DNA from: a virus | Length of the DNA: 64,000 bases | Strand: one strand, 5' to 3' | Virus record (IMG/VR): IMGVR_UViG_3300031834_000002 | Location: 1-64,000 of that record | In this document: positions 3,041 through 28,026 of the stretch, one piece after another | How the letters are laid out: every line of letters begins with the position of its first letter | Numbering within the stretch: position 1 is the stretch's first letter | Position numbers and translations under genes: made by a program | The notes under the pieces: model-generated | What the model saw: only the letters and a program-made list of their open reading frames with translations | Told to the model about the DNA's origin: nothing | The model's database searches: none

Positions 3041-3388
3041 ATGAAAAAATATAAAAATAGTTATAATGGATTATCTAAAATACAATATAAATATGGAGAT
3101 TGTATATCTATATGTGATATTGTATATAAAAGATTAAAAATTAAAGGATATAATCCCCGAATTATTGAAGGATATGCCGAAGTTAATAATGTCAATGACA
3201 TATTGCCCGACGGATATTTTTTAAAAAGATATAATAAAAAAGAATACAAAAAACTAAAAGATATAAATTATAATGATTATCCTAAAATTTTACAACATAC
3301 ATGGATAGAATGTAATAATCATATAATTGACATAACACGCAGTCAATTTGATGTATATGGCGGTATTATTAACTATATAAAGGTATAA
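3041..3388 (+). CDS. Putative papain/transglutaminase-fold protein, 115 aa
   Basis: An early cysteine segment (GDCISIC, around residues 19-25) is followed by HTWIEC near residue 87 and IIDITRSQF near 95. Cys, then His in HTW, then Asp in IDIT is the order of a transglutaminase/papain-like catalytic triad, and HTW(I)E...DIT is typical of small phage proteins of that fold. Activity is inferred. It lies one base before a second putative papain-fold gene. Confidence 0.45.
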   Translation: MKKYKNSYNGLSKIQYKYGDCISICDIVYKRLKIKGYNPRIIEGYAEVNNVNDILPDGYFLKRYNKKEYKKLKDINYNDYPKILQHTWIECNNHIIDITRSQFDVYGGIINYIKV

Positions 3389-3389
3389 T

Positions 3390-3902
3390 ATGGAAAAAGC
3401 AGTAACTAAAAATAATACAATAAAAACATATCCTATAAAATTAAAAATACCTGACGATTATTTTGAACCGTCTTATTATAATCAGGACATACCTGATAAT
3501 GATACCGATATAATAAAAGATTATCCAACATTATCATTATCGTATGTTAAAAAATATATAAATGCAGAATGTTATGCTTACGCTTTGAAAAATAATAATT
3601 TATGCGATTTAGAGGATAGTTTTGGATATTTACAGCGTCTATATAGACCTATATCAATAGAAAATATTAAAATAGGCGATATAATAACATATTATAATAT
3701 TGAAAAAAATACAAAAGGATTGAACGAGCCGAACGATACTACAATAGAGCATTTTGCTATTGTAACAGATATTATTAAAACTAATAGATTATATATCAGA
3801 ATAAAAAGCAAATGGGGATTGAACGGAATTTTTGAAGGTAGTTATAATTTATTGCCCGAATTTTATGGTAATACTTTTTCTATATGGCGTAAGAAAAAAT
3901 AA
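3390..3902 (+). CDS. NlpC/CHAP-like (DUF7689-type) protein, 170 aa
   Basis: The central AECYAYALKN segment supplies a cysteine, IKIGDIITYYN follows, then EHFAIVTDI supplies a histidine, then IKSKWGLNGIFEG and PEFYGNTFSIW. This Cys / GD / His / SKWG order is that of papain-like NlpC-type domains found in phages and polyvalent proteins. No signal peptide is seen, so it may act inside the cell rather than as a lysin. A promoter begins at its stop. Confidence 0.5.
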   Translation: MEKAVTKNNTIKTYPIKLKIPDDYFEPSYYNQDIPDNDTDIIKDYPTLSLSYVKKYINAECYAYALKNNNLCDLEDSFGYLQRLYRPISIENIKIGDIITYYNIEKNTKGLNEPNDTTIEHFAIVTDIIKTNRLYIRIKSKWGLNGIFEGSYNLLPEFYGNTFSIWRKKK

Positions 3903-3960: not shown

Positions 3961-4140
3961 ATGAAAAAGAATAAAAATCCTTTTAAGGCAGGAAATAAAG
4001 TAATATATAAAGACGGAGATGTAAGAGTTTTTACTGTATATAGTGTTTATGGTGATACAAAAGTATCATTAGGGCTTGCCGATTATCCCGACGTAGAACA
4101 GGATTATCAAATACATATTAACAAGATAAAAAAAATCTAA
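3961..4140 (+). CDS. Small hypothetical protein, 59 aa
   Basis: The ATG at 3961 follows AAAGGAAAGG and is preferred over an upstream frame start that would overlap the promoter. The sequence (FKAGNKVIYKDGDVRVFTVYSVYG...) looks like a small beta-barrel (KOW/SH3-like) with alternating strands. Function unknown. Confidence 0.55.
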   Translation: MKKNKNPFKAGNKVIYKDGDVRVFTVYSVYGDTKVSLGLADYPDVEQDYQIHINKIKKI

Positions 4141-4148
4141 AAGATAAT

Positions 4149-4301
4149 ATGAAAGAAAAAATATTGATAAAACATTGCGATATTTGTGGCAGAATTATTG
4201 AAGTAAAACATTATTTTGATTTATTATATTGTAAAGTATGTTTTGAAGCCTGTCAAGTAGAACGACTTGTTATACATAAGAGGAGAAAAAATCATGGGTA
4301 G
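4149..4301 (+). CDS. Zinc-ribbon mini-protein, 50 aa
   Basis: CDIC near residue 10 and CKVC near residue 28 make a two-knuckle zinc ribbon. The end overlaps the next ATG by 8 bases, indicating translational coupling. One of at least a dozen tiny CxxC proteins of this phage. Confidence 0.5.
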   Translation: MKEKILIKHCDICGRIIEVKHYFDLLYCKVCFEACQVERLVIHKRRKNHG

Positions 4302-4746
4302 GTTAAAGGGTAGTAAAAACAAGCTAAAAGTAATTATATCAGAGGTTAATACTGGTGAACCTTTACCTATAAAACGTGGCAGGGGCAGACCACGAAAGAC
4401 ACAGACCACGTTAGATATAAAAGAAGTATCAGAACAAGCACAAAAAATGACTATATCTGTTGATATTAAAGAAATAAAAAGACAAATTAGAACATTAAGA
4501 AAAATTAAAAAAGATACTCGGATAAAAACAGACGAACGCAGAGAATTGAACGAAAAAATCAGAGAATTAAAAGAGCAATTACTTCCTATATATAAGGAAA
4601 CAAGCCCCGAAAAGGAAAAAATAATAGCACAGATATTAACAGTATCGTCAATATCCACAATATTAGATATTGACCTAAATAAATTTACAACAGAAGAATT
4701 ACAAAAACATTATGAATTTATAAAACAAGGTAAGAATAGAATATAA
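4294..4746 (+). CDS. AT-hook-like, coiled-coil DNA-binding protein, 150 aa
   Basis: The ATG at 4294 has a clear AGGAG leader. The N-terminus reads GRLKGSKNK and, near residue 28, KRGRGRPRK, a classical AT-hook core (GRP flanked by basics) that binds the minor groove of AT-rich DNA. Residues 55-105 form a charged coiled coil. DNA binding on this AT-rich genome is inferred; it could be an early regulator or packaging helper. Confidence 0.55.
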   Translation: MGRLKGSKNKLKVIISEVNTGEPLPIKRGRGRPRKTQTTLDIKEVSEQAQKMTISVDIKEIKRQIRTLRKIKKDTRIKTDERRELNEKIRELKEQLLPIYKETSPEKEKIIAQILTVSSISTILDIDLNKFTTEELQKHYEFIKQGKNRI

Positions 4747-4750
4747 AATA

Positions 4751-4783
4751 AATTTGTTTTGGTGTAGTAGTATATGGTATACT
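4751..4783 (+). promoter_or_regulatory. Promoter, repeated class II type
   Basis: TTGTTT at 4754-4759, an 18-base spacer and TATACT at 4778-4783 preceded by TGG. From AATTTG to TATACTT it is a near copy of the 3905 promoter. Confidence 0.7.
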
Positions 4784-4806
4784 TATAATAGAAAGAAGGT
4801 ATAAAA

Positions 4807-4959
4807 GTGAAAATAATTAACATTGACTTAATGGACGAAGCAAGTATTAAAAAAGCAGAACAAGAAAAATTTAGTTTAGAAAATAAAGGATATGAACTTA
4901 TTAGAGAAGAAGTAGGATTTATAAAAGCAATTTTATTTTTTGAACGCATTAGTATATAA
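4807..4959 (+). CDS. Small hypothetical protein with GTG start, 50 aa
   Basis: GTG start after AGAAAGAAGG, about 20 bases after the promoter -10 box. Contains IDLMDEASIKKAEQEKF and a hydrophobic end. A later ATG would leave 42 aa. Function unknown. Confidence 0.45.
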   Translation: MKIINIDLMDEASIKKAEQEKFSLENKGYELIREEVGFIKAILFFERISI

Positions 4960-4970
4960 AGGAAAAGAAA

Positions 4971-5135
4971 ATGACTAAAATAGAAAAGCGGTTAAGATAT
5001 TTGAAAAAACAAATAAAAAATGAAAACATAAGTTATGGAGAAATAGCAGAATTACAAAATTTATCAAAATATATTGATAAAGGCGATATACTATTATTAC
5101 AATGGGCAGAAGTAAAAGAATTTGAGGAGAACTAA
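4971..5135 (+). CDS. Conserved small phage protein, 54 aa
   Basis: The sequence NISYGEIAELQNL...YIDKGDILLLQWA follows a pattern I know from many siphophage genomes, including actinobacterial ones, always as a tiny helical protein of unknown role. RBS AAAGGAAAAG. Confidence 0.65.
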   Translation: MTKIEKRLRYLKKQIKNENISYGEIAELQNLSKYIDKGDILLLQWAEVKEFEEN

Positions 5136-5137
5136 AA

Positions 5138-5392
5138 ATGTATAAAATAAAAGACCTTCAATTTGATGTTAGATATTTTGGCGGTGATGAAGGAATTATT
5201 TTTAAAACAAAAAAAGAAATTATGGAACACTTAGTCAGTTACCACGATAATGATTATTCAGGTGTAAAAAGCAATAAAGAACCTTATAAAGATATATACG
5301 AATTTTTAAAGACATTAAAAAATGACTATACAAGATTAGACTGGTTACTTGAATATGGACAATGGGAAATAGAATATATAAAGGAAGGATAA
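5138..5392 (+). CDS. Conserved phage hypothetical, 84 aa
   Basis: Two bases after the previous stop, which itself supplies GAGGAG as RBS. The predicted alpha/beta protein starts as MYKIKDLQFDV and ends with a WLLEYGQWEIEYI segment; many phages encode similar acidic small proteins. Function unknown. Confidence 0.55.
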   Translation: MYKIKDLQFDVRYFGGDEGIIFKTKKEIMEHLVSYHDNDYSGVKSNKEPYKDIYEFLKTLKNDYTRLDWLLEYGQWEIEYIKEG

Positions 5393-5398
5393 AATACT

Positions 5399-5767
5399 AT
5401 GGAAAATGAAAAATATATTTGTGATAAATGTGGAACAGGAATTTTATTATATAACGAATTACCAAATAATTGTCCTATATGCAATGGAAAACTTATTGCA
5501 GAAAGTAAAATGAAAGAACAAGAAAAATTAGAAAATATGATAGGAGATAATGTAGATGAGGATTTAACTCCTAAACAAGACGCAGATGAGGCGATAGATG
5601 ATTATATAAGGGTAAGAATGATAGAAAACATTGTAAAATATGGAAATAACGAAGTTTGGTATAATATTGAAAATAATATAATTAACGCAGAACAACGATT
5701 AAAATACAGAGAATTTTTTATGTTAGCAGGTGGAATTTGTCCGAAGGGAGAAGAAATAAAAATATGA
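5399..5767 (+). CDS. Rubredoxin-like zinc-ribbon protein, 122 aa
   Basis: CDKC at residues 8-11 and CPIC near 28-31 form a zinc ribbon, followed by an acidic linker and a helical C-terminal region ending KYREFFMLAGGICPKG. A structural, protein- or nucleic-acid-binding zinc module is likely; no enzyme motif. Its last bases overlap the next gene (ATGA). Confidence 0.5.
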   Translation: MENEKYICDKCGTGILLYNELPNNCPICNGKLIAESKMKEQEKLENMIGDNVDEDLTPKQDADEAIDDYIRVRMIENIVKYGNNEVWYNIENNIINAEQRLKYREFFMLAGGICPKGEEIKI

Positions 5768-5901
5768 GTGAATATATGGACAACGTTAAGTGTTGCAATT
5801 GCGGATTTAATGGAATAGTAAAAACAGGACAAGAAAAATGTCCAAAGTGCAAAACAAAAGGGCATTTATCTTGGAAAGAAGGCGAACCGCAGGAGATATA
5901 A
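5764..5901 (+). CDS. Zinc-ribbon mini-protein, 45 aa
   Basis: Starts in an ATGA overlap with the preceding zinc-ribbon gene. Cysteines CNC and CPKC about 16 residues apart make a single ribbon. Probably co-translated with its neighbour. Confidence 0.5.
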   Translation: MSEYMDNVKCCNCGFNGIVKTGQEKCPKCKTKGHLSWKEGEPQEI

Positions 5902-5903
5902 AT

Positions 5904-6038
5904 ATGCACATTTTAATTGATAGAGAAGATAATTCTTATAACGTTGAATTGCAAATTAAGAATAATAAACTATATGCAGTATGGGATAAACAAAAATCTG
6001 AAATATACTTAGATAAATGTAAAATTAAAGATATATAA
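5904..6038 (+). CDS. Small hypothetical protein, 44 aa
   Basis: The ATG at 5904 follows CAGGAGATATAA, a strong RBS inside the end of the previous gene, and is preferred to an upstream in-frame start. Beta-strand-rich (DNSYNVELQIKNNKLYAVW). Function unknown. Confidence 0.45.
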   Translation: MHILIDREDNSYNVELQIKNNKLYAVWDKQKSEIYLDKCKIKDI

Positions 6039-6055
6039 AAAAGGAGAAGGAAAAG

Positions 6056-6214
6056 ATGAAAAATAAAAAATATTCTATAATAGTTAATGTAAATTTAGAA
6101 TACATTATTTATGCAAAGAATGAAATAGAAGCAGAAGAAATTGTATCTAATATAGAATTACCTAAAGAATATGTAGAAGATAGTTTTGAAATTGCTAAAA
6201 TAATAGAAAAATGA
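6056..6214 (+). CDS. Small hypothetical protein, 52 aa
   Basis: RBS AAAAAGGAGAAGG. Begins with two strands and a helix (YIIYAKNEIEAEEIVSNI), a layout common in small phage proteins with a swapped beta-alpha-beta fold. Function unknown. Confidence 0.5.
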   Translation: MKNKKYSIIVNVNLEYIIYAKNEIEAEEIVSNIELPKEYVEDSFEIAKIIEK

Positions 6215-6221
6215 GGTTAAA

Positions 6222-6410
6222 ATGTTAAGGGTTGCTATTATATCTAAACTTGGCAATGTATTTTCTCTTAATGGCACAAGAGAAGAAATAGATAATTTTC
6301 TTCTTGATATAGATAGTAAAGAAGGATTAAAATTATATAGAATAATAGATATAGACACAAAAGAACTTTTAGAAACTCAAGACGGAGTAAAAAATAAGGA
6401 GAATAAATAG
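6222..6410 (+). CDS. Small hypothetical protein, 62 aa
   Basis: Follows the previous gene after 7 bases. Starts with RVAIISKLGNVFSL and continues with a helical region and a second strand (LYRIIDIDTKELLET). No family recognised. Confidence 0.45.
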   Translation: MLRVAIISKLGNVFSLNGTREEIDNFLLDIDSKEGLKLYRIIDIDTKELLETQDGVKNKENK

Positions 6411-6411
6411 A

Positions 6412-6549
6412 ATGAGAAAATTTTTAGAACTTTTAGGATTATTAACAATATTCAGTATAGTAATATTAATGATTTTATATTTAGTAATTGCTTATACAAA
6501 TTTTCTTATAATAGATTTTAGAAATATTAGCGATATAATATATTTTTAA
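6412..6549 (+). CDS. One-helix membrane mini-protein, 45 aa
   Basis: RBS AAGGAG. Nearly all of it is one hydrophobic helix (about residues 6-30). It sits in a pair with a second mini membrane protein and upstream of a membrane-anchored collagen-like protein, so an envelope role is possible. Confidence 0.5.
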   Translation: MRKFLELLGLLTIFSIVILMILYLVIAYTNFLIIDFRNISDIIYF

Positions 6550-6560
6550 AATAGGAAAAA

Positions 6561-6695
6561 ATGACCGAAACAATAAAAGCATTATTTAGTATAATAATTC
6601 CGTTTATGTTTATATGGTTATTATTATCATTATTATTTACTTTGTATTTAATTAAAAAAGAAGAAATACAAAATGGAAAACGAAAAAATATATAA
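6561..6695 (+). CDS. One-helix membrane mini-protein, 44 aa
   Basis: ATG after ATAGGAAAAA. One hydrophobic helix (about residues 10-32) followed by a basic tail (LIKKEEIQNGKRKN), which predicts a cytoplasmic C-terminus. The next gene starts within its last codons. Confidence 0.45.
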   Translation: MTETIKALFSIIIPFMFIWLLLSLLFTLYLIKKEEIQNGKRKNI

Positions 6696-6825
6696 ATTAA
6701 TAGATAATTTCGAAGGCAGTATTTGGGGAACAAAGCCACTTTCAAAAGAAGAACTTGAAAACAGAGAAAAATCCCTAAAAAATAAACAAACAGAAAGAAA
6801 AGAGGAAAATAAATATGAACAATAA
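6673..6825 (+). CDS. Small charged hypothetical protein, 50 aa
   Basis: Overlaps both neighbours by a few codons in a chain typical of phage operons. It has FEGSIWGTKPLSKEELENREKS followed by a lysine/glutamate-rich end that also carries the AGAGGAAAA RBS of the next gene. Confidence 0.4.
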   Translation: MENEKIYKLIDNFEGSIWGTKPLSKEELENREKSLKNKQTERKEENKYEQ

Positions 6826-7780
6826 AATTTTAATTATTGTAATTGGTGGTTTAATATTATCTATTTTATTATTTATTTATGTGGGGTTGTCTTTTGGAGC
6901 TAATGTTACCGATACTGCTGGCGGAAATAAAGGATATATATTAGTAAATGACGGAACAGGACAAGGACATAGAGGCACTTGGACAGACCCTACTTTTTTA
7001 AAGGGCGACAAAGGCGATACAGGAGCGACAGGGCAACAGGGTATTCAAGGTATTAAGGGTAATACTGGAAGTCAAGGGATACAAGGTATCAAAGGAGATA
7101 CTGGCAATATAGGACAAAATGGACTTAATGGTATTGACGGTATAAATGGAATAGACGGAGTTAATGGATTAAATGGCATTGACGGAACAAAAGGAGATAT
7201 AGGATTAACTGGCGATAAAGGCGATAAGGGAGATACTGGTGCAAACGGAAAAGATGTTGACCCTGCAACAGTTAATAATTTACAAAATGCCGATACTACT
7301 TTACAGAGTAATATAAATACTGAAACAACAACAAGGAAAGACGGAGATACTAAATTAAGCGATACAATAAATGCTAAAGATATTACACAAACAAATTGGA
7401 ATAAACAACAAGATAATCAATTATCTAACCACGAAGATAGAATAAATAACCATGATAAAAGAATAGGAAAACTTGAAGAAACTCAAGTGAATGTGCGAGG
7501 AGAAGTAATTTTACAACAAGGACGCAGACATAAAATAGGAGTATATGGTAAATACAACACGAATAGAAATGTAATAGGAGAGGTAGGGCTATCCATTACC
7601 ATGTCATTAGACGATAGTTATGAAATGAAAGAGATAGATAAACTTAATTCTAAAATAGAAAAATTACAAAGTCTTTTAGAAAAACAAGATATAGAAACTG
7701 AAACAGTAAAAGAAGGTAATAAAACTATTATCAGAATAAAACAAAAAGATGGCGTTATAAAAGTAATGAATAAATTTTAA
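6815..7780 (+). CDS. Membrane-anchored collagen-like (Gly-X-Y) protein, 321 aa
   Basis: Residues 4-28 form one hydrophobic helix (signal anchor or signal peptide). About residues 62-146 are Gly-X-Y triplets (GDKGDTGATG, GIQGIKGDTG, GLNGIDGING), as in collagen-like trimeric fibres. Next come helical segments with paired NHEDRINNHDKRI repeats, a short beta region (VGLSITMSLDDS, reminiscent of trimeric autotransporter anchors) and a coiled coil (about 275-295). It probably forms a trimeric fibre on the cell envelope. It is far from the tail genes and on the opposite strand, so a display role on the infected cell is as likely as a virion role. Confidence 0.65.
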   Translation: MNNKILIIVIGGLILSILLFIYVGLSFGANVTDTAGGNKGYILVNDGTGQGHRGTWTDPTFLKGDKGDTGATGQQGIQGIKGNTGSQGIQGIKGDTGNIGQNGLNGIDGINGIDGVNGLNGIDGTKGDIGLTGDKGDKGDTGANGKDVDPATVNNLQNADTTLQSNINTETTTRKDGDTKLSDTINAKDITQTNWNKQQDNQLSNHEDRINNHDKRIGKLEETQVNVRGEVILQQGRRHKIGVYGKYNTNRNVIGEVGLSITMSLDDSYEMKEIDKLNSKIEKLQSLLEKQDIETETVKEGNKTIIRIKQKDGVIKVMNKF

Positions 7781-7782
7781 AT

Positions 7783-7812
7783 TTGCTTTGGTGTAATGTT
7801 ATATGATATAAT
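7783..7812 (+). promoter_or_regulatory. Promoter, repeated class II type
   Basis: TTGCTT at 7783-7788, an 18-base spacer starting TGGTGTAATG and TATAAT at 7807-7812. The same spacer motif occurs in the other class II promoters. It starts the GGDEF-RuvB-like operon. Confidence 0.7.
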
Positions 7813-7832
7813 AGAAGTAGAAAGAAAATAAT

Positions 7833-8315
7833 ATGATAACTCAAAAAGAACAAATAGAAGAACTAAAAAAACAACTTAAAATATATAAAAAATTAAGTAT
7901 ATATGACGAATTAACTGGTATATATAACAAAAGAAAATTAGAAGAAGATTTAATAAAATATTGTAAACTTAATGAAAGATATAATACCAATTTTACAATA
8001 TTAATGCTTGATATAGACCGATTTAAAGATATAAATGATACAAAAGGACATCTTATTGGGGATAAAATATTAAAACAAATGGCAAGAACTTTAAAAACAA
8101 CTATTCGTCTAACAGATAAATTATATCGTCTTTCTGGAGATGAATTTATACTTGTAGTTACTCGTTATAAAATAGAAGAATTTATTAAGCGTATAAAAAA
8201 TATATTAAAAAGAATAAATATAGAAGTAAGTATAGGACATTGTGATATATCTAAAAATTGTTTAGAAATTGTAGATAAATTAATGTATGAAGATAAAAGG
8301 AGTAAAACTAAATGA
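7833..8315 (+). CDS. GGDEF-domain protein (putative diguanylate cyclase), 160 aa
   Basis: A short N-terminal coiled coil (residues 3-22) leads into a complete GGDEF domain: the DELTGIYNKR start (25-34), the metal-binding LDIDRFKDIND segment (59-69), an RxxD product-inhibition site (92-95), then five residues and the signature SGDEF (101-105), and the closing SIGH strand with LMYEDKR. Such enzymes make c-di-GMP from two GTP. The signature has Ser for the first Gly, a change tolerated in some active enzymes. No sensor domain or membrane segment is present. It stands first behind its own promoter and overlaps the RuvB-like gene by ATGA. Confidence 0.8.
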   Translation: MITQKEQIEELKKQLKIYKKLSIYDELTGIYNKRKLEEDLIKYCKLNERYNTNFTILMLDIDRFKDINDTKGHLIGDKILKQMARTLKTTIRLTDKLYRLSGDEFILVVTRYKIEEFIKRIKNILKRINIEVSIGHCDISKNCLEIVDKLMYEDKRSKTK

Positions 8316-9430
8316 CATTTTTTGTTATATTTCTTATGTGTTTAGGATATTATCTTTATAAATATTCTAAAAAATTGAATTTTTTTGAAACACGACCTTC
8401 GCAAATTGTTATATCTTCTCTTACAGATAGAGATATTCCTATTGAAAATGCTCCACAAGACCATTTAAACGTAGTAATACAAGATAGTCAGATAGATATA
8501 AGTAGAATAAAAGAATATAAAGGACAAAGTATAAAAAAGTTTGAATTTAGACCTTATGATTTTAATACTTTTATAGGACAACAGGAGGCAAAAGAAAGAA
8601 CAAAAATTGCTATTAGAAAAATACAAAGAGGATTAAGAGGACATATATTTATAGACGGAAGGCAAGGAGTAGGCAAAACTACATTTGTAAATATTTTAGC
8701 AAAAATGTTAAATGCTCATCTTATTACAAGAGTAGGAAGGCAGATAGACCCTGATGAATTAACTAATATAATCAATGAAATTAATACTTGTCCTGAACAA
8801 AATGTAATTTTCTTTTTAGATGAAATGGACAGCACAGACCGCAAAGTTATTAAAATACTTAATCCTGTCATAGAAGAATTTACAATATCAGGTAAAAAGA
8901 TAAAACCATTTATTTTTTGTGGTGCAAGTATACAGAAATCAATTTTATTACATAATAATCCTGATACAATGGATAGAATACAAATCCATTTAAAGTTTGA
9001 ACGATATACAATCGAAGAATTAAAACAAATTATTAAACAATATATTAATCAATTATTTCCCGAAGAAATTATATCAGAAGAAAATATAGATATTATCGCT
9101 CGTAATTCAAAATTTACTCCTCGTATAGCAATTTCGCTGGCAGAGGAATTAGTTATTGTAGAAAATATATCAAAAGTATTACATAATTGGAAAATTGTTA
9201 AAAATGGACTAACTGAATTAGATATAAGAGTTTTACAAACTTTGTCAGAATTAAAAAGACCGATAGGAGCAAATGCTTTGGCTCAAAGATGTAAATTAAC
9301 GGAATTAGAATACAGTAGAGAGATAGAACCTTTTTTATGCGAAGAAGGATATATTTTAAGGATGCCTTCTCGTATTTTAGGAGAAAAAGGACTACAAATA
9401 TTGAAGGAACTTAAAGATGAAAAATTGTAA
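8312..9430 (+). CDS. Membrane-anchored RuvB-like AAA+ ATPase, 372 aa
   Basis: An N-terminal hydrophobic helix (residues 2-17) is followed by a ~60-residue linker, then a RuvB-like ATPase: RPYDFNTFIGQ (80-90), Walker A GRQGVGKT (116-123), Walker B FFLDEMD (167-173), a probable arginine finger (MDR about 220), and the RuvB C-terminal winged helix (GLTELDIRVLQTL ... ALAQRC ... EPFLCEEGYILR). RuvB drives Holliday-junction branch migration; a RuvC is encoded at 25.8 kb, but no RuvA was seen. The membrane anchor is unusual and could tether recombination or another task to the envelope. Confidence 0.75.
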   Translation: MTFFVIFLMCLGYYLYKYSKKLNFFETRPSQIVISSLTDRDIPIENAPQDHLNVVIQDSQIDISRIKEYKGQSIKKFEFRPYDFNTFIGQQEAKERTKIAIRKIQRGLRGHIFIDGRQGVGKTTFVNILAKMLNAHLITRVGRQIDPDELTNIINEINTCPEQNVIFFLDEMDSTDRKVIKILNPVIEEFTISGKKIKPFIFCGASIQKSILLHNNPDTMDRIQIHLKFERYTIEELKQIIKQYINQLFPEEIISEENIDIIARNSKFTPRIAISLAEELVIVENISKVLHNWKIVKNGLTELDIRVLQTLSELKRPIGANALAQRCKLTELEYSREIEPFLCEEGYILRMPSRILGEKGLQILKELKDEKL

Positions 9431-9911
9431 ATTTTGTGGAAAAGAATTAAGTAAATCTTCTATACAAAAGAAAATAGAAAGATGTTCTAACTGTTATCAT
9501 AAAAGCCGAATAAAAGAAAATGCTACAAGAAAAATCAAACATTATTGTAAAAACTGTTCTAAAATAATAGACAGAAGGTCAATAAGATGTATTAACTGTT
9601 GTGCCAAAATAAGAATAGGTAAAAAAAGACCCGAACACAGTAAAATAATGAAAGGTATTAATAATCCTATGTTCGGAAGTTATAGGATAGGAAAAAATAA
9701 TCCTAATTTTGGAAAAAGACACAATAAAAAGAATGATACAGAACGACATCATATAGATTTAGACCACGATAATAATAACAAAAGCAATATATTGTTATGG
9801 ACAAAAACAAATCATATTAGATTACATCAGAGGGCTTATGAATATTTAGTCAAAAAAGAATTAATCAGAAAATATATAAAGTGGTTTATTAAACGATATT
9901 ATATAAAATAG
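9417..9911 (+). CDS. HNH homing endonuclease with zinc ribbons, 164 aa
   Basis: Starts within the last codons of the RuvB-like gene. The N-terminus has CKFC, CSNC, CKNC and CINC knuckles (two zinc ribbons), then NUMOD3-type motifs (PEHSKIMKGINNPMFG, KNNPNFGK), then an HNH core (RHHIDLDHDNNNKSNILLWTKTNHIRLH). Free-standing endonucleases of this kind spread by cutting genomes that lack them. The zinc-ribbon/NUMOD3 part recurs in the endonucleases at 28.0, 37.9, 57.8 and 59.4 kb. Confidence 0.85.
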   Translation: MKNCKFCGKELSKSSIQKKIERCSNCYHKSRIKENATRKIKHYCKNCSKIIDRRSIRCINCCAKIRIGKKRPEHSKIMKGINNPMFGSYRIGKNNPNFGKRHNKKNDTERHHIDLDHDNNNKSNILLWTKTNHIRLHQRAYEYLVKKELIRKYIKWFIKRYYIK

Positions 9912-9925
9912 AAAGAGAGGGATTT

Positions 9926-10330
9926 ATGAACTACAAACAATTTCTCACGCATTTAAAAGAAGATTATAGTGTAGACCATTTACAAAAGATTTTAAACGGA
10001 AAAGTAGGATTTAATCCTAAACTTACTACTAAATTATCTGTTACTCAACGTAAATATTTATTTGAAAAATATTTACCAAAAATAATAAAACAATTGGAAA
10101 GAGATAATGAAAAAGATATTCTTTTATGGCAAAAAGCTCCTATTTTAAAACTTGCTTTTGTAAGATGTCAACAGAAAAAATTAGGTATTGAATATCTTTT
10201 TGATGAAGCAATGAATATAGTCAATCATTTAAACTGTGATAATAAAGGCCAAGCAATCAGTCAAAGATTTAAAGAATATTATAAACATACTAAAAATGGA
10301 GATTATAATAATGGAACTTTCGAAATTTAA
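9926..10330 (+). CDS. Hypothetical protein, 134 aa
   Basis: RBS GAAAGAGAGGG. Mostly helical and basic (HLKEDYSVDHLQKILNGK, RKYLFEKYLPKIIKQL). It overlaps the recombinase gene by 20 bases and may act with it, for instance as a DNA-binding accessory; no family recognised. Confidence 0.5.
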   Translation: MNYKQFLTHLKEDYSVDHLQKILNGKVGFNPKLTTKLSVTQRKYLFEKYLPKIIKQLERDNEKDILLWQKAPILKLAFVRCQQKKLGIEYLFDEAMNIVNHLNCDNKGQAISQRFKEYYKHTKNGDYNNGTFEI

Positions 10331-11117
10331 AGATTATCTTTTATTAAATGGACGTTCATTTAATACCACATTGAATTATATTGCACGAATTCAACAGGTA
10401 TTAACTTTTACGAAAGAAATATTAACAACAGAAACAATTAATAGTTTTTTAAAAGATATGCAAACAAAATCTAAAGCGTCAACTATTAATGCCTACGTTA
10501 ATGCGATTAAGAGTTATCTTATATTTATAAAACAAACGGATATAATATTACCTAAAAAATTAAAAGAAGAAAAACGATTGCCTGAAAATTTTGATGAGAA
10601 ATATTTAGAAGAAAAGATTATTCCTATTATTATGGCAACAGAAAGAAAAGATTATTTACGATTAAAAGCAATATTTTATTTTCTATTTTATTCTGGTATA
10701 AGAGTAGGTGAGATTGATAATTTAAAACGAATAGATTTTGATTTGGAACAGAAACAAGTTAAGGTATATATATCAAAAACCAAAGAAGAAAGAATAGTAT
10801 TATTTACTGAAATAGCGAAAGATATTATTAAAGAATATTTTAATAGTGAACCAGAAGAAAAAAATGCTTTTAATATGACCTCTATGGCGGTTAAACAGAA
10901 ATGTTATCGTATGAAAGAACATTTTCCAGAGATTAATTTTCATCCTCATTTATTTAGACACAGTTACGCTATTTTTGTATTAAAAAAAGGAATAGATATA
11001 GATAACCTTCGTAAATTACTTGGACATCATTCAATCACAAGCACTACAAGATATTCAGAACTCAATAATGCTCAAATTAAAGAGTTATGGAATAAGAAAG
11101 TAGAAGGAAAGGGGTAG
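10311..11117 (+). CDS. Tyrosine recombinase (XerD/integrase family), 268 aa
   Basis: The N-terminal SAM-like core-binding domain covers about residues 1-85. The catalytic domain shows Arg131 in SGIRVGE, a Lys in ISKTKEE (about 156), His213-x-x-Arg216 in HPHLFRHSY, His239 in LGHHS and the nucleophile Tyr248 in TTRYSE, so the set is complete. It may serve integration, dimer resolution or DNA inversion; no attachment site was found beside it and no repressor is seen in the window. I chose the ATG at 10311 because it gives the usual XerD start, although longer starts exist. Confidence 0.85.
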   Translation: MELSKFKDYLLLNGRSFNTTLNYIARIQQVLTFTKEILTTETINSFLKDMQTKSKASTINAYVNAIKSYLIFIKQTDIILPKKLKEEKRLPENFDEKYLEEKIIPIIMATERKDYLRLKAIFYFLFYSGIRVGEIDNLKRIDFDLEQKQVKVYISKTKEERIVLFTEIAKDIIKEYFNSEPEEKNAFNMTSMAVKQKCYRMKEHFPEINFHPHLFRHSYAIFVLKKGIDIDNLRKLLGHHSITSTTRYSELNNAQIKELWNKKVEGKG

Positions 11118-11120
11118 ATA

Positions 11121-11267
11121 ATGAATTATCATATAGAAGTCAAAAATAGCATTAAGAAATGGGAACGAATAGCAAGTTTTCAATATCCACAAGATAGAGA
11201 CGATTGTGTTATTTGTTTTATAGATATATACAAAGATTATAAATTTAGAACTATTGATGAGGAATAA
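11121..11267 (+). CDS. Small hypothetical protein, 48 aa
   Basis: RBS AGGAAAGGGG lies inside the end of the recombinase gene. Alpha/beta with CVICFIDIYKDYKF. Unknown. Confidence 0.45.
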   Translation: MNYHIEVKNSIKKWERIASFQYPQDRDDCVICFIDIYKDYKFRTIDEE

Positions 11268-11270
11268 AAA

Positions 11271-11534
11271 ATGAAAGATAGTATAGCCCTTATGCAAATT
11301 TATAGAGGATATTTAGAACTTACAGGAGATTTAGTATCTCTTTTGGAAAATCATTTAGAAAAATCTAAAAACAATAATTTATCAAAGAATTTAAAAGAAA
11401 AATATAAAGAATTTAGAAAACATAGTTATAATTTAACAGAAAGATTAAATGCAGACCTCCATAAATTAATAAAAATAGATTATGAACTTAAAAATTTAGA
11501 GGAATTAGAAAATGAAAAAAATCAAAAGAATTAA
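11271..11534 (+). CDS. Coiled-coil hypothetical protein, 87 aa
   Basis: Three bases after the previous stop; its RBS (GATGAGG) lies there. The protein is almost entirely helical, with leucine-rich heptads and high charge. Function unknown. Confidence 0.5.
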   Translation: MKDSIALMQIYRGYLELTGDLVSLLENHLEKSKNNNLSKNLKEKYKEFRKHSYNLTERLNADLHKLIKIDYELKNLEELENEKNQKN

Positions 11535-11679
11535 AACAAGGCATATATGGAATAGAAATCCTAAAACGCAAATTGTGCCTAATAAAAAACATAAAATAGA
11601 TAAAAATTTATCCATTGATTTATTAAAAGGACAAAAAATAACAGAAAGAGATTTAGATGAATTAGATGAAGTATATTAA
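11512..11679 (+). CDS. Small basic hypothetical protein, 55 aa
   Basis: Overlaps the previous gene by 23 bases and is preceded by GAGGAATTAG. Lysine-rich first half, acidic end (ERDLDELDEVY). Unknown role. Confidence 0.4.
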   Translation: MKKIKRIKTRHIWNRNPKTQIVPNKKHKIDKNLSIDLLKGQKITERDLDELDEVY

Positions 11680-11689
11680 AAAGGAGTTT

Positions 11690-11869
11690 ATGGCAAAAGA
11701 AAGAACGTGGGATAACTGTCCATGTTGCGGAACAAAATTATTAAGAGAATATTGGGGAATGAAGGACGAAAATATAATTTGTTGGAGATATACTTGTGAT
11801 AATGGACAGTGTAAATTTGGAATTAATCTTGTAGATAGACCGATAAATGACACTGAACCTATAAATTAG
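11690..11869 (+). CDS. Zinc-ribbon mini-protein, 59 aa
   Basis: The ATG at 11690 has AAAAAGGAG five bases upstream and is preferred over an upstream in-frame ATG. CPCC near residue 10 and CDNGQC near 36 give a zinc-binding ribbon with an unusual second spacing. Function unknown. Confidence 0.5.
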   Translation: MAKERTWDNCPCCGTKLLREYWGMKDENIICWRYTCDNGQCKFGINLVDRPINDTEPIN

Positions 11870-11889
11870 TAGTATTATAGGAGGATTAA

Positions 11890-12297
11890 ATGCCTGATAA
11901 AGAATGTTGTGCAAATTGTAGATTTTATGTAAGCGACGGAAAATATTGCGATTATTGGGCTTATAATGTAGAATACTTAACAGGAGAAAAAGATGATTTA
12001 ATAAGTGTTTGTCCTGATTTCGAAAGAGCAAGATTAAAAGAAGATGAATACGAAGATGAAGAAGGAACTCAAAATTTAAAACCAATTGGAGATAATTATC
12101 CTACTTACAAATCATTAATAGTATCTTTGGGATTAAGAAAAGAAAGAACAACTATGGTAAAAAAATTATTAAATACAGAAAATAAGAGAATTACAAAAGA
12201 TGATATTATCGATATGCAAATTGACCTTTATCTATATGACAAAGGATGTAGAAAAGAAAAAATAAAACGAATTTATAAAAGAAAGAAGAAAGAATAA
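11890..12297 (+). CDS. Cysteine-rich hypothetical protein, 135 aa
   Basis: RBS ATAGGAGGAT. The N-terminus CCANCRFYV...YCDYW...VCPDF has a cysteine spacing seen in small metal-binding phage proteins (possibly Fe-S or zinc). An acidic linker and a lysine-rich helical end follow (KKEKIKRIYKRKKKE). Unknown role. Confidence 0.5.
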   Translation: MPDKECCANCRFYVSDGKYCDYWAYNVEYLTGEKDDLISVCPDFERARLKEDEYEDEEGTQNLKPIGDNYPTYKSLIVSLGLRKERTTMVKKLLNTENKRITKDDIIDMQIDLYLYDKGCRKEKIKRIYKRKKKE

Positions 12298-12298
12298 A

Positions 12299-12430
12299 AT
12301 GGTATATAAAATTTGCTTCTATATGATGTTGACAGGGTATTTAGGTTTATCATTACAGACCACAGATATAAAAGGAAAGTTAATTGGTATTGTTTTATTA
12401 ATAGCTAATGCTCTTATTTTTTATAAATAA
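12299..12430 (+). CDS. Membrane mini-protein, 43 aa
   Basis: Two hydrophobic segments (about 3-18 and 27-42) in a tiny frame between two genes. The upstream gene ends in AAAGAAGAAAGAA, a weak RBS. A promoter-like TTGCTT lies within it but lacks a good -10 box. Confidence 0.35.
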   Translation: MVYKICFYMMLTGYLGLSLQTTDIKGKLIGIVLLIANALIFYK

Positions 12431-12442
12431 GGAGATAATATT

Positions 12443-13600
12443 ATGAATAAAATTTGTGTTCGTAAAGAAGGGAAAGCAACTTTAGTGGGAATTTTAATTC
12501 CTATTGGGTCATATTACGAAGAACCTCATATAAAAGGAATTAGTCATTTTATTGAGCATTGTTGTTTTAAGGGAACTAAAAATAGAACACAGAAAGAAAT
12601 TAATCTTGCAATAGAACAATACGGTGGCGATATTAATGCTTTCACCGATAATGAGATTACATTTTATTGGGCTAAAATTGCTAATCAATATAAAGATATA
12701 GCAATAGATGTTATAACTGATATAGTAACTAATCCTATATTTCCTTCTAAAGAAATAGATAAAGAACGAGAAGTAATTTTACAGGAATTAAAAATGTATG
12801 AGGATAATCCTTCTCATTATATTTATCAATTAGCAAATGAACATTATTATCCTAAAGATAATGGATTTTATTTACCAATAATAGGAACAGAAAAAACTTT
12901 ACAAAATATTAATAAAAAAGAAATATTAAATTATTATAAGAAATATTACAATAATCCTACTTTAATTATTATCGGAGATGTTAAAGATGAACTCTATATG
13001 GAAGAAGAATTGTCATTGGATTATCCTGATTATAGAATTCCTACAAAATTTAAGCGAAGAATATTTGAAAATAGAAAAGATATTAGTCAGTCAATTATGC
13101 TTATAAAAGCAGATGTTAATGTATCAGAATTTTCTGGCTTAGAAAAAGAATATTTAATGGACTTATTATCAGAAGTATATAATGATATGAGTGGTAGATT
13201 ATTTTCTAAAATAAGAGAAGAATATAATCTTGTTTACAGAATTCATTTTGGTATTACTATGAATTCTAATGGAATTATTAATTGGGAAGTTAATTTAGGA
13301 TTAAATAAAAATAAAATAAATAAAGCATATGATTTAATAATAAAAGAATTAAATCGACCTATCACAAAAAAAGAATTAGAAATCGCAGTTACTAAAACAA
13401 TAGGCTCTCAAGCCCTTAGAATTGAAAGTTTAAATTGTATTGCAGAAACAATTGCCTATGGAATAAGAGCCAATTTAGATTGGAATGAATATTTATTTAA
13501 TTATGAAAAAAATATTAATAAATATAAAAATAATTTGAATTATTTTTTAAAAAAGATGAATTTTAAAGAAAATATAATGGCAGGGATTATTCCTAAATAA
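12443..13600 (+). CDS. M16-family zinc metallopeptidase, 385 aa
   Basis: The inverted zinc motif HFIEH at residues 35-39 is followed by FKGTKNRTQKEIN and QYGGDINAFTDNEITFYW, and the third ligand lies in REVILQELKMYEDNP, as in mitochondrial processing peptidase-like and PqqL/YmxG-like enzymes. The second half (from about 200) matches the non-catalytic M16 C-terminal domain. No signal peptide, so it acts in the cytoplasm. M16 peptidases are rare in phages; the substrate is unknown. Confidence 0.85.
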   Translation: MNKICVRKEGKATLVGILIPIGSYYEEPHIKGISHFIEHCCFKGTKNRTQKEINLAIEQYGGDINAFTDNEITFYWAKIANQYKDIAIDVITDIVTNPIFPSKEIDKEREVILQELKMYEDNPSHYIYQLANEHYYPKDNGFYLPIIGTEKTLQNINKKEILNYYKKYYNNPTLIIIGDVKDELYMEEELSLDYPDYRIPTKFKRRIFENRKDISQSIMLIKADVNVSEFSGLEKEYLMDLLSEVYNDMSGRLFSKIREEYNLVYRIHFGITMNSNGIINWEVNLGLNKNKINKAYDLIIKELNRPITKKELEIAVTKTIGSQALRIESLNCIAETIAYGIRANLDWNEYLFNYEKNINKYKNNLNYFLKKMNFKENIMAGIIPK

Positions 13601-13629
13601 AAAGGAGAAAAGATTAAAAATAGAAACTA

Positions 13630-13658
13630 TTGACTCTTATGGGTAAATATGCTATACT
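13630..13658 (+). promoter_or_regulatory. Promoter, class I type (TTGACT-17-TATACT)
   Basis: TTGACT at 13630-13635, a 17-base spacer, an extended TGC and TATACT at 13653-13658, in the gap after the peptidase gene. Very close to a bacterial sigma70 consensus and to the promoters at 23564 and 35216. Confidence 0.75.
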
Positions 13659-13701
13659 TAAAGCGTAAAGTAAGATTGAATTTAACTGTAAGGAGAAAAA
13701 A

Positions 13702-14430
13702 ATGAATAAACAATTGATTGTTATAGGTATCGGATTTATATTGGTAGGATTTATATTGTCATATATTCGTAGAAAACTTGTTGGTTATATTGTCAAAAAA
13801 TCCCCTGAACTTGCCATTTCTGAAAAATTTAATCCCAAAAAATTTCTTAAAGGATTTGCTTTGACTGACCCTGTTTTATGGACAAAATCTATATTTGAAA
13901 TTATAGATTTAAGAAAATTAATTATATATGCTTTAATTGCCCTTACAATTTTTGGATTTGGTTATTATAAGAATTGGCAAAATACTCCTATTAAGATTGA
14001 TTTAGGATATGGTAAAGAAGCGGTTATAGACTTAGGTAATGGCGAATATATGCATATTACTAAAGATGGCGAAGTGCATATTCAGAACTCGCCAGACCCA
14101 AAATCTACTAATATTCTAAGAACTATATCAATTAAAGATATACCTAATTTAAAAGCCAAACTTGCTCCGATAGGATTACAATTCAAGCCTATTATAGTGG
14201 CAGGAATGAGTGCAGGAGCGAATGGTGGCGGAACAGAAGTAGGAGCAGGTATATCTTTCTTTAGATTTTATAAAATGCAAGCAGAAGCATTTATAACTAC
14301 ACATCCTGCAATATATTTAGGAACAAGTTATAGTATTACTGATAATGCAGGTATAGGAATAGCAATAGGCAAATCTTTAAGCGATACTAACGACACAAGA
14401 ATTATGATATATGGCAGAGTTAATTTTTAA
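13702..14430 (+). CDS. Membrane protein with extracytoplasmic beta-rich domain, 242 aa
   Basis: Membrane helices at about residues 5-22 and 72-90. The C-terminal part (about 95-242) is beta-rich with alternating glycines (GMSAGANGGGTEVGAGISFF, GTSYSITDNAGIGIAIG), which resembles small beta-barrel or pore-like phage membrane proteins. First gene of the 13.63-kb operon, with an AAGGAG RBS. Function unknown. Confidence 0.5.
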   Translation: MNKQLIVIGIGFILVGFILSYIRRKLVGYIVKKSPELAISEKFNPKKFLKGFALTDPVLWTKSIFEIIDLRKLIIYALIALTIFGFGYYKNWQNTPIKIDLGYGKEAVIDLGNGEYMHITKDGEVHIQNSPDPKSTNILRTISIKDIPNLKAKLAPIGLQFKPIIVAGMSAGANGGGTEVGAGISFFRFYKMQAEAFITTHPAIYLGTSYSITDNAGIGIAIGKSLSDTNDTRIMIYGRVNF

Positions 14431-14440
14431 AAAGGATAAA

Positions 14441-14629
14441 ATGAAAATAGAACTTAAAGAAATTAAAGCATTGATAGAAGTAGCAATTAAGATTGGTAAA
14501 ATAATAATAGATATAACATTTCATTTAGGAGAATCAACTTTAAAAGGAATAAAATGGATTTGTGGCACATTAATTTATTGTATAACTGCAATTTGTATAG
14601 TAATAGGAATTAATAAAAGGAAAAAATAA
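14441..14629 (+). CDS. Small membrane protein, 62 aa
   Basis: The ATG at 14441 has AAAAAGGAT upstream. An amphipathic start is followed by one clear helix (about 40-58) and a basic tail (INKRKK). Probably works with the membrane protein just before it. Confidence 0.45.
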   Translation: MKIELKEIKALIEVAIKIGKIIIDITFHLGESTLKGIKWICGTLIYCITAICIVIGINKRKK

Positions 14630-14630
14630 T

Positions 14631-14885
14631 ATGCCATATATAAAACAAGAATTAAGAATAAAATATGATAATATATTAAATCAAATGCCTGATATTGATA
14701 ATAAAGGAGATTTAGAATATTGTGTTTTTAAGTTAATGAAACGATTTATGAAAACAAGGGAAAAACGTTATTCTACTTTACATGAAGTCGTGTATGCTAT
14801 TATGCATTGTGCAGATGAATATAGGCGTAGATATTTAGATAAAAGAGAAGATGAAGCAATACAAGAAAATGGAAATATAGAATGA
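14631..14885 (+). CDS. DUF6899-like conserved phage protein, 84 aa
   Basis: The layout MPYIKQELR, GDLEYCVFKLM, YSTLHEVVYAI, DEYRRRYLDKREDEAIQENGNI matches a small conserved protein family found in many phages. All-helical; function unknown. The stop overlaps the next ATG (ATGA). Confidence 0.65.
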   Translation: MPYIKQELRIKYDNILNQMPDIDNKGDLEYCVFKLMKRFMKTREKRYSTLHEVVYAIMHCADEYRRRYLDKREDEAIQENGNIE

Positions 14886-15034
14886 CCAGAAAAGAAGAAC
14901 TCGAACAACAATTATATAATTTGAATACTGATTATAATGATTTCGGTGGCGATACAGTCTGTTTAGATGGCAATTTTACAACGGAACAATTAGAAATTAT
15001 TTTAGAACTTTTAAAATTAAATAAAAAGGAATAA
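14882..15034 (+). CDS. Small hypothetical protein, 50 aa
   Basis: Begins in an ATGA overlap. Two helices around a GGDTVCLDGNFTTEQ turn. The pattern is that of small phage proteins of unknown role. Confidence 0.45.
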   Translation: MTRKEELEQQLYNLNTDYNDFGGDTVCLDGNFTTEQLEIILELLKLNKKE

Positions 15035-21929: not shown

Positions 21930-22076
21930 ATGAAATTTACAGAATTAGGAACTCTAATTATCAGAAAATTTTTATGTGTTATATTTAAACACCGATTTAT
22001 TGATGATATTGTTACTCGTTATCCAGATTATTCTCATATAAATTATTGTGTTAAATGTGGTAAGATTAAAGGATAA
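21930..22076 (+). CDS. Small hypothetical protein with CxxC, 48 aa
   Basis: Strong RBS AAGGAGG. Hydrophobic first part, then YCVKCGKIKG at the end. Similar short proteins ending in CxxCG/K occur several times in the window (near 38.6 and 34.7 kb). Function unknown. Confidence 0.45.
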   Translation: MKFTELGTLIIRKFLCVIFKHRFIDDIVTRYPDYSHINYCVKCGKIKG

Positions 22077-22077
22077 A

Positions 22078-25770: not shown

Positions 25771-26322
25771 ATGATTAATAAACTTATATGGGATATTAAA
25801 AAAGTAGAGAATAGATTTAACATTAAGTTAAAACGCAATACACAAGTATTGGGTATCGATACAGCTTCGAAATCTGGTTATTGTATTGCTAAGACAGACG
25901 AAAAGAAATTGATATTAGAGATTGGATTTGTAAATATAAATGTATCGCAAATTAAAGATAGAGACACCAGACATGAAATGTTATATAATGCTATATATGA
26001 AGCGTTTAATGGATTAATCGCTTCACAATTCGATACAGTTGTTATTGAAAATGTATTTCATAGTTTTAATCCCGATACTACAATTTTACTTTCTCGTTTT
26101 GGTGGTATAATTTACAGTATTTGCAAGGCAAAACAAATTAAAAATATTATATGGAAATCGGCTTCGCAAGCAAGAAAAGTATTAGGAATTAATCAAAAAT
26201 GTCCAAAAGGTAAAGCAAAAGAAACCATTGTAAAAAGAGTTAATAAAAAATTAGATACTCATATTACAAATAATGATGAAATAGACGCAATCGTTTTGGC
26301 ATTAGTAGGATTAATAAAATGA
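25771..26322 (+). CDS. RuvC-like Holliday junction resolvase, 183 aa
   Basis: RNase H fold with acids in order: LGIDTASKSGY (about 28-38), VVIENVFHSFNP near 92 and NNDEIDAIVLAL at the end. Length and layout match RuvC. It cuts four-way junctions from RecA-driven recombination or branched DNA before packaging. It sits one base after the primase-helicase. Confidence 0.8.
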   Translation: MINKLIWDIKKVENRFNIKLKRNTQVLGIDTASKSGYCIAKTDEKKLILEIGFVNINVSQIKDRDTRHEMLYNAIYEAFNGLIASQFDTVVIENVFHSFNPDTTILLSRFGGIIYSICKAKQIKNIIWKSASQARKVLGINQKCPKGKAKETIVKRVNKKLDTHITNNDEIDAIVLALVGLIK

Positions 26323-26823: not shown

Positions 26824-26977
26824 ATATTTATCTAAATGTTGTAAAACAGAAATTATTACGATTATGTCTCCAGATTTTATAGGAGACGATACAAAGACAA
26901 TGAGAGTAGGAACTTGTCATTTCGGATGTAATAAATGTGGTAAACCATGTGATATTATACAAAGGAGAAAGAAATAA
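26807..26977 (+). CDS. Zinc-binding mini-protein, 56 aa
   Basis: Overlaps the previous gene and shares TAATG with recA. CCKT, CHFGCNKCGKPC give five or six cysteines with zinc-ribbon spacing. Translationally coupled to recA. Confidence 0.5.
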   Translation: MKKKIKYLSKCCKTEIITIMSPDFIGDDTKTMRVGTCHFGCNKCGKPCDIIQRRKK

Positions 26978-28026
26978 TGGGCAGACATCCAAAGGATTGT
27001 AATTGTGAAAATTGTAAAAAAGATAATAAAGAAGAAATAAAACAACCTATACAATCAGAACAAAATAAAGATTTTGAACATCTTATGAAAGAATATGAAA
27101 ATAAATACAATGCCAAACCTGCTTCAAAAATTGTTATTCTTCCTAAAATCAGAACAGGAATATATGCCCTCGATTATGTATTATCAGGAGGTATTGCCCA
27201 ATGCGAAGGAGGTCATAAGATAGAGTTTCATGGTAGAGAATCTTCTGGTAAAACTACTATGGCTTTAAAAGTTATCTCCAAATATCAAGAATTAAATAAA
27301 ACCTGTGTTTTTATAAATGCCGAAAATTCATATGACCCTCAATGGGCAGAAATTAATGGAGTAAATAATGAAAAATTATTAGTCCTTAAACCCGACACTC
27401 TTGAACAAGCAGGAGATATATTAATAGATTTAATTCCTAAAGTTGATTTGATAGTTATTGATAGTATTATTGCACTCATTCCTGCCGAAGAATTAGAAGG
27501 GTCTTTAGAAGATAAACATATGGCAAGTTCGGCAAAAATAAATGCTCCTTTATGTAGAAGAATTAATCAGACATATAAAGATTTTAAGACAACTATTATT
27601 TTTATTAATCAGATAAGAGAAAAGGTTGGAATTATGTATGGCAACCCAGAAACTACAAGTGGTGGGCGTGCATTACGTCATCTTTATGATACTACTGTAG
27701 AGATAAAAACAGGAAAATCTATAGAAATATCTGTAGAAGGTCTGGATAAAAAAGAACGAATAGGAAACGAAACCATATTAATTAATAAAAAAAATAAAAA
27801 AGGAGTTCCTTTTAGACAAACTATTGTCGATTTTTACTTAACAGGTATTCTGGACAATCGCAAATCTTTACTTTATGCAGGTATTAAATTCGGAATTATT
27901 AAGTTAATGGGTAATACTTATAGTTATAAAGATATAAAAGCAGTAGGAAAAGATAAATTTGGAGAACTTTTAACGGATAAAATGTTAAAAGAAATTGAAG
28001 ACGATATTTGGAAATCTCAACCATGA
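26977..28026 (+). CDS. RecA recombinase, 349 aa
   Basis: The N-terminal CNCENC motif is unusual for RecA and may bind metal. Then the core: Walker A GRESSGKT (86-93), FINAENSYDPQWAE (a DAEHA-like region with Asn for Asp), IVIDSIIALIPAEELEG as Walker B/L1 entry, NQIREKVGIMYGNPETTSGGRALR as the L2 DNA-binding loop, and a short C-terminal domain. Catalyses strand exchange for recombination-dependent replication and repair. Good RBS AAAGGAG in the preceding gene. Confidence 0.9.
   Translation: MGRHPKDCNCENCKKDNKEEIKQPIQSEQNKDFEHLMKEYENKYNAKPASKIVILPKIRTGIYALDYVLSGGIAQCEGGHKIEFHGRESSGKTTMALKVISKYQELNKTCVFINAENSYDPQWAEINGVNNEKLLVLKPDTLEQAGDILIDLIPKVDLIVIDSIIALIPAEELEGSLEDKHMASSAKINAPLCRRINQTYKDFKTTIIFINQIREKVGIMYGNPETTSGGRALRHLYDTTVEIKTGKSIEISVEGLDKKERIGNETILINKKNKKGVPFRQTIVDFYLTGILDNRKSLLYAGIKFGIIKLMGNTYSYKDIKAVGKDKFGELLTDKMLKEIEDDIWKSQP

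Follow-up and report, generated by a model that had tools for sequence, protein, structure and literature searches.

A lineage of tailed phages carries a DNA motor that, judging from its sequence, is probably derived from RuvB, independent of RuvA and usually tethered to the membrane. RuvB itself is the textbook soluble motor partnered by RuvA. The motor gene was analyzed in a stretch of DNA of 64,000 nucleotides (hereafter the window), which comprises bases 1-64000 of the 89,804-base IMG/VR record IMGVR_UViG_3300031834_000002 from an uncultured virus. The remainder of this record holds structural and packaging genes (translations judged by eye), and the virus is therefore regarded as a tailed phage. 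The features discussed below are collected in Table 1.

Table 1. Positions in the window of the motor gene and its parts, of the neighboring genes and of two further recombination genes.
Feature	Position	Strand	Basis
GGDEF protein of 160 aa, stand-alone and lacking a sensor domain; N-terminus short and coiled-coil-like	7833..8315	+	Pfam 9.1e-31
Shine-Dalgarno-like AGGAG ahead of ATG 8312	8298..8302	+	sequence
RuvB-like AAA+ motor, 372 aa	8312..9430	+	ORF, Pfam, NCBIfam, AlphaFold2, structure comparison
Predicted transmembrane helix at the N-terminus (residues 2-22), followed by basic residues	8315..8377	+	hydrophobicity, AlphaFold2
Linker, residues 23-76 (23-58 predicted disordered)	8378..8539	+	AlphaFold2 model
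AAA+ core with Walker A, Walker B and arginine finger R222	8540..8998	+	Pfam, alignment
Presensor-1 segment, 21 residues (33 in E. coli RuvB), RuvA-docking beta-hairpin cut to a stub	8870..8932	+	alignment, AlphaFold2
Winged-helix DNA-binding domain RuvB_C (residues 297-365), with R350 and R354 retained	9200..9406	+	Pfam, alignment
HNH/NUMOD3 homing endonuclease-like gene inserted at motor 3' end, optional at the locus	9417..9911	+	Pfam, PHROG
Small fast-diverging protein (134 aa) between motor and recombinase	9926..10330	+	alignment
Tyrosine recombinase, sole PF00589 match in the record	10311..11117	+	Pfam 2e-22
RuvC-like Holliday junction resolvase	25771..26322	+	Pfam 2e-10
RecA-like recombinase	26977..28026	+	Pfam 6.5e-58

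In the structural model the motor has a RuvB-type fold, made of the AAA+ part, the lid and the winged helix, and is more than a generic AAA+ protein. Pfam detects RuvB_N (4.3e-13, residues 80-192) and RuvB_C (1.5e-9, residues 297-365), both above the curated cut-offs, and the NCBIfam RuvB models cover residues 73-365 at 9e-35; no other PF00004 match is present in the window's record. The AlphaFold2 model, which was built on a 33-row alignment that includes RuvB relatives, has a mean pLDDT of 87.1, with the RuvB fold above 90 across most of residues 81-370. When this model was compared with the PDB by Foldseek, RuvB chains occupied ranks 1-45 and clamp loaders came next at 1e-10, while VIA-align gave RuvB a Z of 30.4 over 284 residues and the next family a Z of 18.8. 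The RuvB ATPase with a winged helix that the initial annotation had proposed for this gene was thus confirmed by Pfam matches above cut-off and by the Z of 30 to RuvB. The residues taken as catalytic, namely the Walker A lysine, the Walker B DE, the arginine aligned to E. coli R174 and the sensor-2 arginine, are retained in all seven aligned clade members. PMC9477746 names four arginines that contact DNA; two of them, placed at E. coli R313 and R318 on the basis of an inferred offset, are likewise retained in 7/7. One relative, L113, has no winged helix.

According to excerpts of PMC9477746 and PMC10272136, the presensor-1 beta-hairpin of RuvB binds domain III of RuvA. It is this part that is reduced in the phage motor. 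The presensor-1 segment, which lies between Walker B and sensor 1, counts 21 residues in all seven aligned clade members, and the same length was read from the translations of the remaining four. Among the other phage RuvB-like proteins it counts 29-36 residues in 71 of 72, the exception being L020 with 21. The AlphaFold2 model draws the hairpin as a stub with strands two residues long. A profile search for RuvA_N matched none of the eight clade records, and as these records may be fragments the absence is weak evidence; RuvA could also be supplied by the host. From its sequence the clade motor is apparently active with the RuvA dock removed. The motor also stays below the NCBIfam equivalog cut-offs (120 bits against 282, and 114 against 299). 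Because of these scores and the reduction of the RuvA-docking hairpin, we do not regard the motor as a RuvB orthologue. On many uncultured virus contigs (L018-L092) the RuvB-like protein is soluble, has about 300 residues and shows a presensor-1 segment shortened to 29 residues.

The predicted membrane tethering depends on the N-terminal helix, for which the basic residues on its C-terminal side lead to a predicted N-out/C-in orientation. AlphaFold2 models the helix at a pLDDT of about 90. The best 15-residue stretch near the N-terminus reaches 2.07 on the KD scale and 11.9 kcal/mol on the octanol scale, and shuffles of the motor reached these values within the first 35 residues in 162 of 5000 cases (KD15) and in 8 of 5000 (octanol). 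By 19-residue KD the window helix is unremarkable by itself (1868/20000 shuffles), so the case for an anchor rests on the relatives. An N-terminal transmembrane helix is predicted in 9 of the 11 distinct members of the clade (the window counted), diverged in sequence and followed by basic residues, and none of 73 other phage RuvB-like ORFs exceeds a KD15 of 1.72 in the first 60 residues. The helix is not indispensable, since it is missing from L098 and L113. Its loss in these two is the simpler reading because L017, the deepest branch of the clade, has the helix, in a tree that is long-branched. An amphipathic membrane-targeting N-terminus in L098 and L113 was considered and rejected, as the moments are not clearly above those of shuffles (1510/5000 and 344/5000).

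It is hardly probable at all that the protein truly starts farther downstream, which would make the hydrophobic N-terminus an artefact of annotation. Such a start would fit the short helix of the window, unremarkable by 19-residue KD, and the two relatives that have none. However, a Shine-Dalgarno-like sequence precedes the upstream ATG, and the helix is encoded at the same place in nine of the 11 members. Of the next two in-frame ATGs, one (residue 9) falls within the helix and the other (residue 132) past Walker A, and no obvious Shine-Dalgarno accompanies the TTG at residue 24. A downstream start was rejected on the relatives. The hydrophobic helix which the initial annotation had seen ahead of the RuvB part therefore holds, and what it had named as counting against an anchor, a downstream start in homologues or no anchor in relatives, applies to L098 and L113 and to none of the other nine members.

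The relatives were obtained by scans of viral contigs, which gave ten distinct ones (L002, L015, L016, L017, L097, L098, L108, L109, L110 and L113); with the window they make up the clade of 11. Duplicates and near-copies were left out (L003, a near-copy of L002, as well as L013, L014, L104-L107, L111 and L112), and so were L099 and L100, which match over only about 60 residues at 29-31% identity. Record G010 was covered to base 100000 of 100617. The comparison set was drawn from 80 loci, from which the clade members L013-L017 and the unusable frames of L046 and L084 were removed to give 73, and the incomplete L060 to give 72. In the tree the 11 members are set apart at 100/100, a value to which a long-branch warning applies, and labels for the presence of GGDEF and for the missing transmembrane helix did not cluster beyond shuffles. 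A tblastn search of a phage collection with the motor returned 34 matches, all below 60% identity and, among the matches listed, at 25-29%. Scanning of genome contigs with the motor gave a single locus, a bacterial RuvB 27% identical, and single-sequence scans with the GGDEF protein and with the recombinase protein found no relative.

Pfam searches found the primase-helicase, PolB, RecA and RuvC to be common to the motor clade, which makes it one phage lineage. RuvC-like matches were obtained in nine of ten clade records and RecA-like matches also in nine of ten; in these records RuvC adjoins RecA and the primase-helicase, away from the motor gene. No tRNA genes were found in the 64-kb window. 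Some of the other genes of the window are unusual cargo for a phage, namely an M16 peptidase (12443-13600, 2e-32), a trypsin-like protease (18068-18862), an M50 membrane protease (21272-21916, 2.2e-37) and an MFS/BT1 transporter (22048-23253). In addition, a LicD/glycosyltransferase ORF (45722-48025) is split by what looks like an intein, in which LAGLIDADG_3 is matched at 5.4e-9.

In all 11 clade members the motor gene is followed, a few genes downstream, by that of a tyrosine recombinase, which is the only PF00589 match in each of the six records tested. Among 75 other phage RuvB-like loci, several of which have short flanks, a nearby tyrosine recombinase was seen in one (L057). To put this linkage into perspective we examined 390 pairs of gene families co-present in at least six of ten clade records. 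The motor-recombinase pair is the only one of the 390 that is close in all ten records, and for 19 pairs the partners are close whenever a record has both, so a part of the linkage is the ordinary synteny of one lineage. The linkage is strong, not unique. Between the window and L002 the recombinase is 29% identical, the small protein in between 22% and the motor 74%; the far faster divergence of the recombinase argues against tight co-evolution with the motor, and the recombinase may be just an integrase. In the unrelated phage record L057 a tyrosine recombinase and, judged by eye, a DnaN-like clamp are encoded close to a soluble RuvB-like gene, all within 5977-9801.

A hotspot of insertion lies at the motor gene's 3' end. 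Homing endonuclease-like ORFs of the HNH or LAGLIDADG kind overlap the stop codon in four members (window 9417-9911, L002 9025-9684, L109 7094-7624 and L098 4018-4224; those of L002 and L098 were judged by eye), and the same place is taken in L108 by an HD-GYP gene (3082-3744).

At the other end, the gene for the GGDEF protein overlaps the motor gene by four bases (ATGA); an overlap of the two genes had been stated in the initial annotation. In an alignment of five clade GGDEF proteins the one from the window has SGDEF at canonical spacing and also RLTD, which we take to be the active-site motif and a possible I-site, respectively. It looks active, as a predicted diguanylate cyclase, and it probably changes host c-di-GMP. 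The proteins of L002, L015 and L110 (three of the five) have extra residues in the active-site loop, for which reason cyclase activity is not to be assumed for them. In L015 the GGDEF part (5.6e-28) is fused in a 349-aa ORF (3995-5044) behind an HTH-like part (by eye) and an HNH part (0.0034).

Members of the same small GGDEF family lie within 1.1 kb upstream of the motor, on the same strand, in five of ten assessable members; L016 was left out of this count since only 744 bases of its contig precede the motor gene. The gap to the motor is about 730 bases with three ORFs in L002/L003, about 800 with two in L015, about 340 with one in L109 and about 1060 with two in L110. The four-base overlap is therefore confined to the window, one to three ORFs intervening in the other four GGDEF-bearing members, and a strict cyclase-motor operon was rejected on this ground. 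A pyrimidine-dimer DNA glycosylase gene is situated between GGDEF and motor in L002 (7483-7914, Pyr_excise 1e-21) and in L110 (5331-5807, by eye). No GGDEF was found in the records of L017, L097, L098, L108 and L113, which may be fragments, so that this is weak evidence, and a clade HMM found none near the 75 other phage RuvB loci. L108 encodes instead a 220-residue protein with a match to Pfam HD_5 (1.1e-34), which we take to be of HD-GYP type, and its gene overlaps the motor 3' end; this protein had no match in the other four records without GGDEF. A second-messenger enzyme is probably present at the motor locus in six of ten members. The GGDEF protein is an optional neighbor and not an obligate part of the motor. 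Of the coupling of motor and cyclase put forward in the initial annotation, there remains the nearness of a GGDEF gene in half of the assessable members; a search for the same gene pair in relatives, which had been suggested as a check, recovered it within 1.1 kb in four others and with direct overlap in none of these.

The reading we favor, with about as much confidence as doubt, is that the motor is a membrane-tethered, RuvA-independent dsDNA translocase which processes joints in phage DNA, likeliest together with the neighboring recombinase and possibly with the phage RuvC. In this lineage of tailed phages a RuvB-derived AAA+ translocase would have parted from RuvA and become tethered to the inner membrane. 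The motor subunits may form a hexamer round duplex DNA beneath the membrane, on its cytoplasmic face. Their winged helices would hold the DNA in the manner of RuvB, and DNA joints would be pumped past a fixed point without RuvA. The motor probably works like RuvB on duplex DNA. Its likeliest job would be the processing, at the membrane, of joints of replicating or recombining phage DNA, and its partner may be the tyrosine recombinase of the locus, in the way that membrane-bound FtsK serves XerCD, and/or the phage RuvC. By analogy, the partnership of motor and recombinase is perhaps FtsK-Xer-like. A further step would be a RuvB-built counterpart of FtsK-Xer, in which the membrane-fixed, RuvA-free translocase drives synapsis or resolution by the recombinase (of genome dimers or in integration) and the locus is wired to host c-di-GMP via swappable GGDEF and HD-GYP enzymes; this we consider unlikely.

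Somewhat unlikely, though the most probable of the alternatives, is an ordinary phage branch-migration motor that works alongside the RecA and RuvC of the phage, and perhaps the RuvA of the host, in recombination-dependent replication. In that case the helix would only place it near membrane-associated replication and the recombinase would be a bystander integrase. The presence of RuvC and RecA-like genes in nine of ten records each, the RuvB fold and the quick divergence of the recombinase all fit this explanation. It accords less well with the hairpin stub found in all members, with the eight records in which RuvA was not found and with the position of RuvC, which lies beside RecA and the primase-helicase and not near the motor. 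The notion, raised in the initial annotation, of a motor controlled by c-di-GMP, whose level the neighboring GGDEF or HD-GYP enzyme would set so as to switch the membrane-bound ATPase or the locus, is possible, not favored, and in our opinion quite improbable. The link to c-di-GMP is not dismissed because the locus of L108 includes an HD-GYP gene that overlaps the motor 3' end, and the closeness of GGDEF in five of ten members, compared with 0/75 other phage RuvB loci, points the same way. However, five members have no GGDEF in their record and four of those no HD-GYP match either, the length of the GGDEF active-site loop varies in three of five, and no riboswitch was found in the window (no Rfam match to a riboswitch or structured RNA at gathering, and none in 5000-15000 at E 1). 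That the motor is a phage clamp loader derived from RuvB is highly improbable. The best PHROG matches of the motor are to families named clamp loader (phrog_5846, 1.8e-16), and in L017 an ORF that ends just before the motor gene (5322-5849) is weakly similar to families of DNA polymerase accessory proteins (phrog_6615, 4e-4). On the other side RuvB folds score far higher (Z 30 versus 18.8), a RuvB_C winged helix is present and no PF02767 clamp match was found in six records; the clamp loader was rejected as the leading reading on the fold scores and the winged helix.

The phage motor shares with bacterial RuvB (T. maritima 1in4 and E. coli NP_416374) the fold, Walker motifs, arginine finger, sensor 2 and two DNA-contacting arginines, at 23-31% identity in structural alignments. 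It differs from it by the added transmembrane helix and linker, by a presensor-1 segment of 21 instead of 33 residues and by the lack of a ruvA in the records searched. Soluble phage RuvB-like proteins (L018-L092) have the phage-encoded RuvB core in common with the clade, but they have no N-terminal helix, a segment of 29-36 residues (71/72) and other neighborhoods. The phage protein p16.7 of phi29 recruits DNA replication to the membrane, and it is not known to be an ATPase motor or a relative of RuvB. Excerpts of the literature describe FtsK as made of an N-terminal membrane domain, a motor and a winged-helix gamma domain (PMC2680272) and as controlling XerCD. The likeness of the phage motor to FtsK/SpoIIIE with XerCD is one of working parts, i.e. 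an N-terminal membrane anchor, a linker, a DNA motor, a winged helix and an associated tyrosine recombinase, whereas its AAA+ part is of RuvB type, a single membrane helix is predicted and the recombinase link is known from gene neighborhood. In L017 the Pfam family FtsK_SpoIIIE gives a match that stays below cut-off (0.0045), and the best 25 of 32 families for the window protein do not include it. Other phage GGDEF proteins (phage G gp350 and a match in SP-15) share the domain and its occurrence in a phage, while that of the window has 160 aa, no sensor and a place beside a motor gene. No description of a membrane-anchored RuvB was found in the open-access literature, the scope of the search, with subscription papers and preprints lying outside it. 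RuvB-type AAA+ motors are already known; the membrane-anchored, hairpin-less variant with a conserved locus appears to be new.

If the favored reading is true, a RuvB engine freed of its RuvA dock and supplied with a tether would be reusable as a fixed DNA pump. With one membrane helix, an AAA+ ring and a recombinase, the system would also make a small model for the control of tyrosine recombinases by membrane-bound translocases. The locus would likewise be a concrete case in which to ask whether second-messenger enzymes and DNA processing are coupled in a phage.
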